A program made the position numbers and the translations under genes. This document shows positions 6,030-32,713 of a stretch of DNA of 32,870 nt, piece after piece. The first letter of the stretch is position 1, and each line of letters starts with the position of its first letter. The notes below the pieces were generated by a model. It did no database searches. It saw only the letters and a program-made list of their open reading frames with translations, and was not told the DNA's origin. Source of the DNA: Phycisphaerales bacterium (GTDB lineage: Bacteria; Planctomycetota; Phycisphaerae; UBA1845); the NCBI GenBank assembly GCA_013140575.1, contig JABFSN010000146.1, positions 1 to 32,870 of the forward strand, written 5' to 3'.

Positions 6030-7745
6030 ATGATGATGGTGGCGGCGGGCGACATGCCGGCGGGAGTGATCCAACTGTGGATCATCGTGGGCTATCTGGG
6101 CGCGCTGATCGCGCTGGGCCTGGCCAGCAACCGGTTGTTCAAGGGGACGGCCGTCGATTATTTCGTGGCGTCGCGCGGGGTGGGGCCGGTGCTGCTGGTG
6201 CTGTCGGTGTTCGGCACGACGATGACCGCGTTCGCCATTCAGGGCAGTTCGGGCGAGGCGTGGGTCAGCGGGGTGGGCGTGTTCGGGAAGATGGCGTCGT
6301 GGTCGGCGATCGTACACGCGGCGTGTTTTTTTCTGGTCGGCGTGAAGTTGTGGACATTCGGGAAGCGGTACGGGTATCAGACGCAGATACAGTTTTTCCG
6401 CGACCGGTTTGATTCGCCCAACATCGGCATTCTGCTGTTTCCCATCCTGGTGTTTCTGCAGATGCCCTACGTGGTCATCGGGATCATCGGGGCGGGGAAC
6501 ATGGTGACCGCGGCCACTTCCGGCGCGTTTCCGCAACTGTTTCCGGGACAGGGCCTCGCGAACGGAAGCGTGCCGTTCTGGCTGAGCACGCTGGGTTGCA
6601 CCGGGGTGGTCTGGTTGTATGTATCACTGGGCGGGGCGCGGGCCACGGCGTGGGCCAATGCGTTGCAGACGTTGATCTTCCTGGTGGTCGGGGTGGTGAC
6701 GTTTGCGATGATCGCCGACAAACTGGGCGGCGCGGCCAACGCCACGCAGATGGTGCAGGAATACAATCCCAGCAAATTCACCCGCGGTGTCACCGACGAG
6801 CACCGGAAGAACTACGACGAGAAGATGGCCTCGTGGGAGGCGGCGAAGGCGGCCGCGCCCGAAGGCAAGCCGGTGACATCCGTTTTGAAGCCCCATCCAC
6901 CGAAGGAAATGAGCGAATGGGGGTTCCTCAGTTACGGGTTCATCCCGTTGAGCGTGGCCATGTTTCCGCATTTGTTCCAATTGTGGCTGACGGCGCGGTC
7001 GGCGAAGGCGTTTCGTTTGACGGTGACGCTGCACCCGTTGCTGATCATGTTGATCTGGGCGCCGTGCATCGCCATCGGGGTGTGGGCGTCGGCGGCGATG
7101 ATCGGCGGCAAACCGGTCATTCCGTTTACACCCGATTCGCCGGACGCCAACGCCAACGTGGTCATTGGGCGGATGGTTGCGGCGCTGGGGGATCCCATGG
7201 TGAGCGGGTTGTTGGCCGCAGGCGTTTTGGCCGCGATTTTGGGGGGCATGGACGCTCAATTTCTGAGCATGGGATCGATGTTCACGCACGACGTGGTGGA
7301 TCACTATTTCGGGCACGACGCGTTGACCGACCGGCAACGGCTGATCACCGGGCGGGTGTTCGTGGTCGTCGTGGTGCTGGGGTGCTGGCTGCTGGCACTG
7401 GCGCTCAAACAGACCCGGCCCATATTCAATCTAGCGGTGTGGTGTTTTTCGGGCTTCGCGGCGCTGTTTCCGCTGGTGATCGCGGCGTTGTATTGGAAGC
7501 GGGTCACGCGCTGGGGGGCATACGCGTCGATCGTCGCGGGGATCGGCAGCGGCGTATGGTTCTACGTGCGCATCGGACTGGACCGTGGATTCTCGTCGCG
7601 CATGGACCCGGAAATGTGGGGTCTGGTGCCGGCCGCGCCCATGGTGGTGTTCGCGACCGTCGCGTTGATTGCGGTGTCGTGGCTGACGCGGCCGCCCGAG
7701 GCGGGCACGATCGAGAAGTTCTTTTCCGCGGGGGCGCGGCATTAG
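6030..7745 (+). CDS. Sodium:solute symporter (SSF family) transporter
   Basis: About 571 residues with some 13 membrane helices; the first is IQLWIIVGYLGALIALGLAS and the next segments (YFVASRGVGP, TTMTAFAIQGSSGEAWVSG) are the hallmark of SSF carriers, which take up solutes with Na+. Also typical are GRMVAALGDPMVSGLLAAGVLAAILGGMDAQFLS and IFNLAVWCFSGFAALFPLVIAALYWKR. A hydrophilic insertion at about 250-300 (with KASWEAAK- and APEGKP-like sequence) is longer than usual. Substrate cannot be told from sequence; monocarboxylates or sugars are possible. ATGs at 6030, 6033 and 6036 compete, and TTG 6021 is another option. It is co-oriented with DUF3311 upstream and the CstA-like gene 18 bases downstream. 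Confidence 0.9.
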   Translation: MMMVAAGDMPAGVIQLWIIVGYLGALIALGLASNRLFKGTAVDYFVASRGVGPVLLVLSVFGTTMTAFAIQGSSGEAWVSGVGVFGKMASWSAIVHAACFFLVGVKLWTFGKRYGYQTQIQFFRDRFDSPNIGILLFPILVFLQMPYVVIGIIGAGNMVTAATSGAFPQLFPGQGLANGSVPFWLSTLGCTGVVWLYVSLGGARATAWANALQTLIFLVVGVVTFAMIADKLGGAANATQMVQEYNPSKFTRGVTDEHRKNYDEKMASWEAAKAAAPEGKPVTSVLKPHPPKEMSEWGFLSYGFIPLSVAMFPHLFQLWLTARSAKAFRLTVTLHPLLIMLIWAPCIAIGVWASAAMIGGKPVIPFTPDSPDANANVVIGRMVAALGDPMVSGLLAAGVLAAILGGMDAQFLSMGSMFTHDVVDHYFGHDALTDRQRLITGRVFVVVVVLGCWLLALALKQTRPIFNLAVWCFSGFAALFPLVIAALYWKRVTRWGAYASIVAGIGSGVWFYVRIGLDRGFSSRMDPEMWGLVPAAPMVVFATVALIAVSWLTRPPEAGTIEKFFSAGARH

Positions 7746-16866: not shown

Positions 16867-17027
16867 GCGGGAAGGGACTCCCGCTGTGATGCGCGCGGGA
16901 AGTGATTCTCGCACGAGCGACGGGGGATGTATTCGCCGGAAGGGATTCCCACGCCCATAGGTACGAGAAGGGATTCCGGCACGAGCGAGTACGCCGGCCC
17001 AGACGATTCGATCGGAATCCCTCGCCG
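16867..17027. repeat. Cluster of five short palindromes with GAAGGGATTC core
   Basis: Units: GCGGGAAGGGACTCCCGC (16867-16884), GCGGGAAGTGATTCTCGC (16895-16912), a unit with GCCGGAAGGGATTCCCAC at about 16935, another with ACGAGAAGGGATTCCGGC at about 16963, and a reversed one with CGGAATCCCTCGCCG (17013-17027). Starts are spaced 28, 40 and 28 bases. The rest of the gap 16503-17227 holds a terminator and the repeat at 17142-17168 and no gene. Confidence 0.7.
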
Positions 17028-25355: not shown

Positions 25356-26384
25356 CTAATCCCGAATCTCCACTTTCGACTTGTTCACGATCAGCAGGTC
25401 GTACAGAAACTCCACGTCTTCGTTATACAGACGCACGCATCCCAGCGACGCGTTTCGGCCTATGCTGTCAGGTTCAACCGTGCCGTGAATGCCGTAGCGC
25501 ATCTGACCGACCGCGTTTCCGTCCACCCCTTCCAGACCGATCCATCGTTCGCCCAACGGGTTAGCCGGGTCGTCGGCCGAGACGATGTCGCCGCTCCGCG
25601 GCGGGTAATAGGTCGGGTTGGTCAATTTGTTTCGGACCACCCATGCGCCCGTGGGCGTCGCGTCGTCGGCGCCCAGACCGACCTTGAAATGGTCGACGAA
25701 CACGGTCCCCAGGAACACGTCGATGGTGTGCGTGCTTTTCGTCACCCGGGCGTGAAACGGACCCCGGATGACCTTCAGTCGTTGACCCGCCCCGATGCGA
25801 TTCACGTCTGAAATGTTGTTGATTCGCGCCAGCAGGTCGGCCGTCACGTCGTGCGCCGTTGCGATCTTGCCCAGCGAGTCGCCGGGTTGGACCGTGTAAT
25901 AACTCGCGAACGGGTCGTTCTCGAAACACGACGGCGAAAACACCGTGTCGCGGCCCAGCACGCGAAGCTGCCGCCGCGCCTCCTGCTCGTCGTCCGCGGA
26001 CAGTCCCAGGTTCATGGCCTCGCTGAAATGGGCCCGTGCCAGCACCTTGTCACCCGACGCCAGCGCCCGATGGGCCGATTCCAGAAGGGCCGCCGACTTG
26101 GTTGGGTCGATCGACGCCGTCCGCGAAACCGGCTCGATCGAATTGTCCCCGCGCTCCGGAACGTCCGCGTACGGACCGCCCGTCAGGTCGCTGTCTTCCG
26201 GCCGATCCGTGGTCAACGGCGGCGGTTGAAACTCCGAAACGTCGTTCGGCGCGGTCGATCCGCCAAACCACCCCCACCACGATTCATGGAATACGCCGGC
26301 GACAGTCACCGTCAGCACCATAACCGCCGCCGTGATTCCCGTGCGGTTTCGTTTTCGAGGTCGAATCCTGCGTCGTTTGGCCAA
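25356..26384 (-). CDS. Membrane-anchored LysM/L,D-transpeptidase (YkuD family)
   Basis: 342 residues from ATG 26384. A basic N-terminus is followed by one helix (about 17-34), then a Pro-rich linker and a helical TPR-like stretch (about 95-140). A LysM domain (161-206; YYTVQPGDSLGKIATAHD) binds glycan and a YkuD catalytic domain ends the protein: RYGIHGTVEPDSIGRNASLGCVRLYNED contains the HxG..(His300) and catalytic Cys316 in SLGCVRLY. It forms 3-3 cross-links in peptidoglycan or attaches proteins to it. The full catalytic motif argues against a pseudogene. Divergently upstream is the large gap 26385-27128. No promoter was assigned. Confidence 0.9.
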   Translation of the reverse strand: MAKRRRIRPRKRNRTGITAAVMVLTVTVAGVFHESWWGWFGGSTAPNDVSEFQPPPLTTDRPEDSDLTGGPYADVPERGDNSIEPVSRTASIDPTKSAALLESAHRALASGDKVLARAHFSEAMNLGLSADDEQEARRQLRVLGRDTVFSPSCFENDPFASYYTVQPGDSLGKIATAHDVTADLLARINNISDVNRIGAGQRLKVIRGPFHARVTKSTHTIDVFLGTVFVDHFKVGLGADDATPTGAWVVRNKLTNPTYYPPRSGDIVSADDPANPLGERWIGLEGVDGNAVGQMRYGIHGTVEPDSIGRNASLGCVRLYNEDVEFLYDLLIVNKSKVEIRD

Positions 26385-27128
26385 GGCGCGTCCCTTTCGC
26401 GGTGGGAAATCCCCGTCGATCGAATCCCGGATGGCGCCGCCGAAAACTACCCTTCACGCATGAACCGCGCCGCCATTCGGCAGCATACGGTCGGCCATCG
26501 TTCACGCAAGCCCGAATTGCGAACCGCCATCGTTTTCCGCGACCATCGGCTGCATCGAGACACGCAATTCCTGTGGAGCGAGATGACCAGCTACCTCCCC
26601 CCGAACCGGCGGTCCACCGTTTCAGGGCGTGCCTATTTGATCGGGCCGGTTTTTGATTTCCATCTTCATCCGCATCCGGTATCCCCGGAACGGCGTCGAA
26701 GACGAACGGCAACCGGGAAACGCAGGACTGCGGCGGATCGAACCACGCGCCCCGTCCGCAGGTTGAATCGACAGGCCCGGCGTCGGCGGGCCATATTCAA
26801 GGCGCCTCCAGGAGACGCCAACCACCCGCGAACGATCGGCGTCGAGGCGAATAAAACGTCATTCCGCGGACGCATAAACCGAACGATGCAAGGTCTCGAA
26901 AAACGCGAGAACGGTTGATGGGACGCGTTTCTTGATTGCTGCGGACGCACAAATAAAGTCAAATTCGTTTGGACCCGCCGATTCCCCTGACTTTTGGTTC
27001 TAGTGCCCTCATCGACCGACCGATACCACTCAACGCAGTCACTTCCGAGGGGAGGAGCCGGGCCGATCAAGCGTTCTGTGTTTTGGGAGGTGCTTCCCGA
27101 AAATCGTCATTTCTTAAGGAGCGCGCAG
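26385..27128. other. 744-base stretch without a recognised gene
   Basis: Six frames give only Arg-rich translations without a ribosome binding site or domain. Noted inside it: GGCGCCTCC-A-GGAGACGCC, nearly palindromic, at about 26801-26819, and a bent hairpin TTTTGGGAGG...CTTCCCGAAAA just ahead of the tiny ORF at 27129. This may be a leader for the tiny ORFs, or decayed coding sequence. Confidence 0.5.
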
Positions 27129-27206
27129 ATGATGGGGACACTGGTAATGTGGCTTGTCGAACTGTTCGGGCCGCTCGGTGCATTCATCGATCAGATCCCT
27201 GCATGA
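27129..27206 (+). CDS. Candidate 25-residue hydrophobic small protein
   Basis: ATG 27129 follows TAAGGAG (27115-27121) at a 7-base spacing, seven of the eight bases of the anti-ribosomal consensus. Translation is MMGTLVMWLVELFG then PLGAFIDQIPA, with an amphipathic/hydrophobic helix and a Pro-containing tail. Its TGA overlaps the ATG of the next small frame (ATGA at 27203). No homologue is known to me; it could be a membrane microprotein or type I toxin-like peptide. Alternatively a chance ORF behind a good ribosome binding site. Confidence 0.4.
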   Translation: MMGTLVMWLVELFGPLGAFIDQIPA

Positions 27207-27235
27207 AGGAACCCCGCAGTAAGGAGACCCCGACC

Positions 27236-27286
27236 ATGGTGATACTGATTACCCAGATCGAGGAGATCATCGCCGCGACGCGGTAA
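27236..27286 (+). CDS. Candidate 16-residue peptide (MVILITQIEEIIAATR)
   Basis: ATG 27236 follows a second TAAGGAG (27220-27226) at a 9-base spacing. The peptide alternates hydrophobic and acidic residues and could form an amphipathic helix. A longer alternative starts at ATG 27203 (27 residues, overlapping the stop of the first tiny ORF). It is downstream of it in the same transcript, and a GGTGCCA-TTACG-TGGCACC hairpin follows at 27349-27367. Confidence 0.35.
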   Translation: MVILITQIEEIIAATR

Positions 27287-27348
27287 TCGCTCGCGGCCGC
27301 TCCCCGATCGACAAATTGAGTCGCGCGTGCCCGATGGGCCGATCCGCA

Positions 27349-27367
27349 GGTGCCATTACGTGGCACC
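27349..27367. repeat. Hairpin GGTGCCA-TTACG-TGGCACC
   Basis: A perfect 7-bp stem 63 bases after the tiny ORF stop; no T-run follows. It may end the small transcript or be a repeat. Confidence 0.45.
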
Positions 27368-27430
27368 CACAGCGCCGCGGCGCTCGTGGCCTGGCCAACC
27401 CGGCCACGTTCCGGCGAACGTGAATTCGTT

Positions 27431-27517
27431 CGTGCGAGAATCCCCTCCTCGCTCGCGCGAGAATCGCTCGTGCGAGAATCCCTTCTCGCACGTCCGTCGG
27501 CGGGAATCCCTTCCCGC
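27431..27517. repeat. Cluster of palindromes with GAATCCCTTC core (second copy of the 16867 family)
   Basis: Units are CGTGCGAGAATCCC (27431), CGCGAGAATCGC (about 27455), CGTGCGAGAA-TCCC-TTCTCGCACG (27469-27492, perfect 10-bp stem) and GCGGGAA-TCCC-TTCCCGC (27500-27517). The last is the reverse complement of 16867-16884 with one mismatch. Confidence 0.75.
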
Positions 27518-27571
27518 GGCTCGGCGACCCGCACGGTCGACGCCCTCGCGGCCACGCCCGAACGGTGACGA

Positions 27572-28339
27572 TCAACCGGGAAACGATTCCACCGGCAGGC
27601 CCGTCCGATCCCGCACCCGGTCGGCGATCCGCGCCACTTCCGCGTCGTCGAGCCGCGTCACGTACCCCTGCGCCGGTGGACGTGCGACCGTGTAGACCTG
27701 CACACATGCGAGTCGCCCGCCCCCGACCACGATTTCGCTCAGCCGGCCGACGTACGCATCAATCTCCGCGTCGGACGGCGGCGCATCATGAACCCGCATG
27801 AACAACGATTGGATCACCACCGGTCGGACGCGCGCGGCGTGCACGATGTTTTCCACGACGTGGGCCAGCGGGTAGTTCGGCCGGTTGATGAGCCGGTAAT
27901 AATCCTCCGTTCCCGCATCCAGCTTCGCCCAGATTTCGCCGTGCGAACCGTCCATGATTTCGAGTCCGCGTACCACCGCCGGCCGCGTCAGATAGCACGC
28001 GTCCGTAATCAGGACCGTTTTGACCCCGCCGAGATTTCGCGCGCGTTTCAATTCCGCGACCATCGCCACGGCGTCGGCGAACTGTGGACACGTCGTCGGC
28101 TCGCCGTCGCCGCTGAACGCGATGTCGTTCAACCGCCGAAATGTGGGGGGTGTCGCGGCGAATTCGGGCTCGCTGAACAACGCACCGGTGACTGCGGTCT
28201 CGACTAGCGCTTCCAATTCCCGTCGCAAAACCGCGACGTCGACCGTCCGCACTCGCGGAACTCCGGTGCGATCGACTTGGCAATAAATACAGTCAAAATT
28301 GCACGCAGCATCGGGGTTCAGGTTTACCCCTATGCTCAA
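27572..28339 (-). CDS. Radical SAM protein with abnormal 5' end
   Basis: 255 residues from TTG 28339. CNFDCIYCQVDR gives the [4Fe-4S] CxxxCxxC motif; FSGDGEPTTCPQF and KLDAGTEDYYRLINRPN match a family of single-domain radical SAM proteins of unknown substrate. In-frame sequence continues 35 codons upstream to 28444 with RDWRGFLYAYPVISRRSRG, then SIGVNLNPDAACNF, exactly the expected family N-terminus, but no ATG, GTG or TTG occurs there before the stop at 28445-28447. Either initiation uses a rare codon (for example ATT), or a base change or assembly error removed the start. It is convergent with none, and divergent from rpmE. Confidence 0.78.
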   Translation of the reverse strand: MSIGVNLNPDAACNFDCIYCQVDRTGVPRVRTVDVAVLRRELEALVETAVTGALFSEPEFAATPPTFRRLNDIAFSGDGEPTTCPQFADAVAMVAELKRARNLGGVKTVLITDACYLTRPAVVRGLEIMDGSHGEIWAKLDAGTEDYYRLINRPNYPLAHVVENIVHAARVRPVVIQSLFMRVHDAPPSDAEIDAYVGRLSEIVVGGGRLACVQVYTVARPPAQGYVTRLDDAEVARIADRVRDRTGLPVESFPG

Positions 28340-32413: not shown

Positions 32414-32460
32414 CCGAAAAGGGCCATGAATTGCGAAATCGTGCGGCCGCTTGCATTGAC

Positions 32461-32506
32461 GCGCCGGGCAGGACTCGAACCTGCGACCGTCGGATTAGAA
32501 ATCCGC
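32461..32506 (-). pseudogene. 3' half of tRNA-Arg(TCT), likely attachment-site remnant
   Basis: On the minus strand the T-arm GCAGG-TTCGAGT-CCTGC (32468-32484), a 5-base variable loop, and an anticodon arm with loop TTTCTAA (32495-32501; anticodon TCT at 32497-32499) are intact apart from one outer mismatch. The acceptor half CCGGCGC follows, but no encoded CCA, D-arm or 5' acceptor strand is found upstream. Tyrosine recombinases commonly integrate into the 3' end of tRNA genes, so the fragment beside an integrase remnant is best read as an old att site. Confidence 0.7.
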
Positions 32507-32713
32507 GGTGCCGAATCCGTAACCGACGGTGAATCAACGGCTTGCGCGCCGACGGCCGAAACGCTTGGCGTTCTGCTTGGCGTTTTTCTGCCAAAACTGG
32601 CCGAAACCGACCCGGAATTGGCGGCCGTCGTCGCGGCGTGGCCGACGCTGCCGGATGCGATCCGGGCGGGCATCGTGGCGATGGTCCGGGCGTCTGGCCG
32701 CACTGGTGAATAG
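32507..32713 (+). pseudogene. Frame running through the tRNA fragment with an Ala-rich helical end
   Basis: Frame open from 32426 reads across the tRNA fragment (giving the artefact-like RRAGLEPATVGLEIR), then continues as ETLGVLLGVFLPKLAETDPELAAVVAAWPTLPDAIRAGIVAMVRAS. The second part has helical, conserved-looking character and resembles ends of integrase-associated small proteins in planctomycetes, from memory. No start codon lies after the tRNA piece. Treated as element debris; function unknown. Confidence 0.35.

Follow-up and report, generated by a model that had tools for sequence, protein, structure and literature searches.

Two conserved microprotein genes in a Phycisphaerales lineage, with related copies in phage contigs

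The window, by which we mean the whole stretch of 32,870 nucleotides of Phycisphaerales DNA analyzed here, contains two very small plus-strand genes in a gap of about 1.2 kb (26385-27571) between two minus-strand genes. One border of the gap is formed by a gene for a LysM/YkuD L,D-transpeptidase (25356-26384, minus strand) and the other by a convergent gene for a radical-SAM protein (27572-28339, minus strand; PF04055, E value of 5.6e-11). Microprotein gene 1 (27129-27206) encodes a peptide of 25 residues, MMGTLVMWLVELFGPLGAFIDQIPA, with a hydrophobic N-terminal part and a conserved FIDQIPA directly before the stop codon. Microprotein gene 2 (27236-27286) encodes a peptide of 16 residues, MVILITQIEEIIAATR. 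Both are preceded by the Shine-Dalgarno (SD) sequence TAAGGAG, located at 27115-27121 (plus strand), 7 nt before the ATG of peptide 1, and at 27220-27226 (plus strand), 9 nt before the ATG of peptide 2, exactly as described in an earlier note made from this sequence. A search of both strands of the 32.9-kb window for TAAGGAG followed by ATG after 5 to 10 nt returned exactly two sites, those of peptides 1 and 2.

The same note had joined a longer version of peptide 2 to gene 1 through an ATGA overlap, which arises where the peptide 1 stop codon abuts the SD sequence (..GCATGAAGGA..). This alternative frame of 27 residues (27203-27286, plus strand) was rejected as a real product: its N-terminal extension is not conserved, and the other genomes retain the short form only. 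Folding of the 90 nt downstream of gene 2 gave a GC-rich hairpin, GGTGCCATTACGTGGCACC (27349-27367), as a possible operon end. Because it has no U-tract, we assign a terminator function to it only tentatively. Strong hairpins are also found 3' of gene 2 in several relatives, for example, G033, G040, and G020, and GC-rich hairpins at this place would fit the end of an operon. Palindrome-like short repeats of the type GCGAGAATCCCTTCTCGC / GCGGGAATCCCTTCCCGC are clustered between the pair and the radical-SAM gene (27426-27517) and occur again at 16895 and 16942. Elsewhere in the window, an Rfam tRNA call at 32460-32529 (minus strand) lies exactly at the gathering score (29 bits) and has no corresponding ARAGORN call. 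The draft genome is planctomycete and of the Phycisphaerae type, with a release-factor gene that is nearest to loci of named Phycisphaerae bacteria.

The first search with the 25-residue query already revealed both peptides in three other genera. We then surveyed the 51 genomes of the family with degenerate patterns and profile searches; the 16 genomes with peptide 1 are also the 16 with peptide 2, each has one pair, and they represent 10 of 32 genera. The profile matches had E values of 9.6e-6 to 9.4e-10 for peptide 1 and of 2.3e-5 to 1.4e-7 for peptide 2. Pattern and profile searches of the order's remaining 63 genomes returned neither peptide, the peptide 2 pattern had no case in the remaining sampled genomes of the class, and the peptide 1 pattern had none in 245 other sampled genomes of the phylum. 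A match in G028 (HLIDQIPG) was judged to be a chance hit, as no peptide 2 adjoins it. Many of the searched genomes are draft assemblies, and absence from an incomplete genome is weak evidence; the absence of the pair in about two-thirds of the family may reflect loss or divergence past detection. In a tree of the radical-SAM protein, the deep branches are too poorly resolved to separate one ancient gain followed by losses from several gains. The peptides scanned had no match in Pfam, NCBIfam, PHROGs, or PADLOC, libraries which contain few peptides this short; peptide 1 has no sequence relative in the PDB, and no description of this peptide pair was found in the literature.

Peptide 1 is 21 to 28 residues long across the set, with the consensus of a variable part of 14 to 21 residues followed by F-[IV]-D-[QS]-I-P-[AC]-stop. 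Its N-terminal part is hydrophobic or amphipathic, and its C terminus, FIDQIPA, is nearly invariant. The best 14-residue segments have Eisenberg means of 0.43 to 0.78, with the versions of genus g5 being amphipathic, and by composition peptide 1 has the short hydrophobic helix expected of small membrane-protein regulators. The membrane peptide suggested in the earlier note therefore agrees with peptide 1 at the level of composition. Peptide 2 is 16 to 23 residues long, acidic, rich in isoleucine, and amphipathic, with the consensus M-[IVL]-x-[IVL]-I-T-[QP]-[IVM]-[DE]-[DE]-I- (MIE[IV]ITQIDDI-like). The net charge of both peptides is negative.

An SD-like site precedes peptide 1 in all 16 genomes, and relatives retain SD-like sites ahead of peptide 2 as well. 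The peptide 2 start codon follows the peptide 1 stop codon after 12 to 15 nt in 15 genomes; in the window, this distance is 29 nt. Over all pairs of genomes, the final eight codons of peptide 1 had a pN/pS of 0.14, compared with 0.85 for the N-terminal part of this peptide and 0.30 for peptide 2; because pS is near saturation, these ratios are if anything too high. Within pairs of genomes of the same genus, the frames share an identity of 0.59 to 0.96, versus about 0.37 to 0.57 for the distal upstream and downstream flanks, where the DNA is at roughly the background level. Selection at the amino acid level in both frames is evident from these codon changes. The earlier note had held that such strong SD-ATG signals are hard to explain by chance, and the joint recurrence of both peptides in 16 genomes and 10 genera bears this out. 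It had also asked for a look at synonymous sites, where the tail of peptide 1 (0.14) and peptide 2 (0.30) both have low ratios, and had named a lack of conservation in close relatives as grounds for refutation, whereas the pair and its SD sites are kept in 16 of the 51 family genomes. Its proposal of a microprotein pair is thus strongly supported by conservation, SD retention, the synonymous-site patterns, and the constant spacing of 12 to 15 nt in 15 relatives. The comparative evidence supports genuine, selected peptide-coding frames, which are presumably translated in vivo.

Peptide 1 is also present in mobile DNA. The set is small, comprising three phage contigs from IMG/VR and one integrase-bearing element, and the copies have SD sites. 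IMGVR_UViG_3300038466_000059 (G413), a contig with portal, terminase, and RusA genes, encodes peptide 1 as MLTALAPMLGWLMELFRLFIDQIPA and, about 420 nt downstream, peptide 2 as MILLITPVDEVVHDTEDYHAA, and the region of the pair contains a Lar-like restriction-alleviation gene. IMGVR_UViG_3300048072_000107 (G414) encodes MFLSIALIVLVWLGFIDQIPA behind a tRNA-Met gene. In IMGVR_UViG_3300014656_004740 (L419), the peptide 1 copy, MVGWIDLCSRVLDLFALFVDQIPA, is followed by genes which we take, from reading them, to be phage packaging genes. The integrase-bearing contig G044:C617 (L417) encodes a solo peptide 1, MVFCDLFLRLWDLFSTSIDQIPA, at 6393-6461 (minus strand). G413 alone has both peptides; no peptide 2 was detected with the other three of the four mobile copies of peptide 1, so a joint action of the two peptides need not be obligate.

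The peptide 1 of G044:C617 is nearest to the chromosomal version of G044, including the variable part, and none of 5,000 shuffles was equally good. Both peptides of G413 are nearest to those of genus g5, with one of 5,000 shuffles being as good for peptide 1. These relationships point to hosts and phages exchanging the peptides within particular lineages, in one direction or the other. Most viral pattern matches were attributed to chance, for example, the RCLALSLIDQIPA group and L273, and G413 is the only real case of the ITPVDEV pattern in viruses. No match was found among the INPHARED phages, and the only match in plasmids was insignificant.

The radical-SAM gene is the sole widely recurring gene within 9 kb of the pair. 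It lies no more than about 2.2 kb away in 13 of the 16 genomes while the other neighbors change. In eleven of these it is adjacent to the pair in a tail-to-tail arrangement (including a remnant in G044); the distance is 1.3 kb in G014 and 2.2 kb in G020, where the gene and the pair share a strand. As for the other three genomes, G005 and G015 are cut by contig breaks, and G040 has the gene clearly apart, at a locus whose flanks extend for 5 kb in both directions without the pair. In four genomes (G003, G033, G014, and G040), the pair is preceded by what we presume, by sequence recognition, to be an mqnD-like gene and then an HAF-repeat-like gene.

Such proximity raises the possibility, which we consider rather unlikely, that one or both peptides are RiPP-like or pheromone-like substrates or protein partners of the convergent enzyme. 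The structural model of the enzyme (pLDDT of 91.8) has a radical-SAM fold, and its best match in the PDB is the complex of SuiB with its precursor peptide, SuiA (E value of 7.5e-9), which favors a peptide substrate. However, the DesII, TYW1, viperin-like, and NifB folds have nearly the same scores, and several of these are not peptide-acting enzymes. Within the 255 residues of the enzyme, Pfam finds PF04055 only, no NCBIfam model is above its cutoff, and no SPASM/twitch or peptide-recognition domain was found with either library; the protein fits no curated family. It has a weak resemblance to viperin (NCBIfam E value of 4.8e-5, far below the cutoff score, and PADLOC pVip E value of 9e-5). The homologous frames begin about 100 nt farther upstream than the TTG start listed in the window, which is therefore probably too late.

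Since the radical-SAM gene is found across the order, as a single copy in 90 of 114 genomes irrespective of whether they have the pair, its linkage to the pair is only suggestive and is no proof of a joint function. Moreover, another neighbor of the radical-SAM gene, encoding about 550 to 700 residues, is often kept in pair-less genomes and is also kept beside the G044 remnant, so the retained synteny with the pair is not exceptional. This conserved neighbor is located upstream on the same strand at the radical-SAM loci of G001, G009, G010, G011, G016, G030, G036, G043, G044f, G047, and G056. What adjoins the pair in G044 is a mere remnant, decayed (L126, G044:C611, 3667-4146), and the intact copy on another contig (C282) groups with those of pair-less genomes, which may be either a replacement or a binning artifact. 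The architecture of peptide 1, with a conserved tail and a variable N-terminal part, is also the reverse of that of the usual RiPP precursor, which has a conserved leader and a variable C-terminal core.

We also regard as improbable a small toxin or bacteriocin-like pair, in which peptide 1 would be membrane active, peptide 2 would neutralize or assist it, and phages would use peptide 1 for exclusion, killing, or lysis. Hydrophobic or amphipathic peptides of 21 to 28 residues behind strong SD sites would suit such a role, as would the patchy distribution (16 of 51 genomes) and the carriage by phages. Against it are the net negative charge of both peptides, the lack of a PADLOC or Pfam match, and the nearly invariant tail of seven residues, which favors a specific partner. 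The type I toxin considered in the earlier note is without positive support, both peptides being net negative, single copy, and strictly conserved in their motifs.

The leader pair, another suggestion of the earlier note, would require FIDQIPA-stop to stall the ribosome in cis and thereby control the next frame. Conservation does peak just before the stop codon while the N-terminal part varies, and the short gap (12 to 15 nt) places the peptide 2 SD site within reach of a stalled ribosome in 15 genomes. However, the stop codon itself varies (TGA in 7 genomes, TAG in 7, and TAA in 2), peptide 2 is itself under amino acid selection, and where the radical-SAM gene is adjacent (the window and ten other genomes), the same strand has no protein gene before that convergent gene. 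In phages, peptide 1 stands ahead of unrelated genes, and peptide 2 can be about 420 nt away. Together, these observations make an arrest or leader peptide doubtful indeed. Frames that arose by chance, or a conserved RNA instead of peptides, would be in keeping with the small size and with nothing else, and we consider them hardly credible given the amino-acid-like conservation with abundant synonymous change, concentrated in the frames, and the retention of both frames in 10 genera.

The explanation which we prefer, and to which we give about even credence in its full form, is that of a real bicistronic operon of two microproteins, with a membrane-associated peptide 1 carrying a partner-binding FIDQIPA tail and a co-acting peptide 2. 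Judging from composition, peptide 1 is most likely held within the cytoplasmic membrane or at its surface by the N-terminal helix, which is variable and either hydrophobic or amphipathic, and the almost invariant tail would be exposed and bind a specific putative partner. The combination of a strict tail and a lax helix suggests that the partner is specific to the tail and that the helix is tuned in each lineage. Peptide 2, made from the same message, may share the target of peptide 1 and act together with it, or may be its counterpart. Such a module would be of the small membrane-protein regulator type and neither an enzyme nor a leader acting in cis. Phages carry peptide 1 repeatedly, and both peptides once, in versions that resemble those of particular host lineages and were probably copied from the hosts. 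The module would thus probably have its target in the host, and phages would benefit from tuning it. Overall, this suggests a membrane-linked function of the pair that is shared by bacteria and phages. A more speculative extension, which we offer with some reserve, is a host-specific control module of two microproteins that phages have copied from their hosts. Peptide 1, through its nearly universal tail and a helix specific to each lineage, would act on a single host target that is itself conserved, which might be a membrane complex or the radical-SAM enzyme; with matching copies, phages would steer that target during infection.

The genes of this pair have 16 to 28 codons, are under clear amino acid selection, are in none of the profile libraries used, and are also borne by phages, and ordinary gene finding missed both. 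If a function is confirmed, they would constitute a lineage-specific planctomycete microprotein module common to host and phage, and the C-terminal FIDQIPA would be a short, testable motif for finding the target.

Several known systems share features with the pair. The arrest peptides TnaC, SecM, and ErmCL have their conservation concentrated at the C terminus by the stop codon, as peptide 1 does; unlike them, peptide 1 has no consistent downstream gene, varies in its stop codon, and has phage copies in other contexts. The phenol-soluble modulins of staphylococci are likewise very small and amphipathic, and their tandem genes have separate SD sequences, but the pair described here belongs to a different phylum, has a nearly invariant FIDQIPA tail, and has no family match. 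In streptococci, the SHP/Rgg-linked radical-SAM RiPP loci for streptide and tryglysin have a short hydrophobic peptide encoded near a radical-SAM gene (PMC13361665, PMC8092268). The pair is similar in having a short hydrophobic peptide close to such a gene, but the enzyme here is order-wide and is present without the peptides, and we noticed no Rgg-like regulator in the vicinity of the pair. Finally, MgtS, MgtR, AcrZ, KdpF, CydX, and YohP are single-helix bacterial small membrane proteins. No sequence relation between proteins of the MgtS/AcrZ type and the peptides was found, and the peptides differ from them in being a tandem-encoded pair, in having the C-terminal tail as the conserved part, and in having phage copies. 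Several small membrane proteins, according to two publications, bind and regulate larger membrane proteins (PMC7549839, PMC6813294). What the pair has in common with the MgtS, MgtR, AcrZ, KdpF, CydX, and YohP type is a length of less than 50 residues, a hydrophobic helix, and genes that annotation missed.
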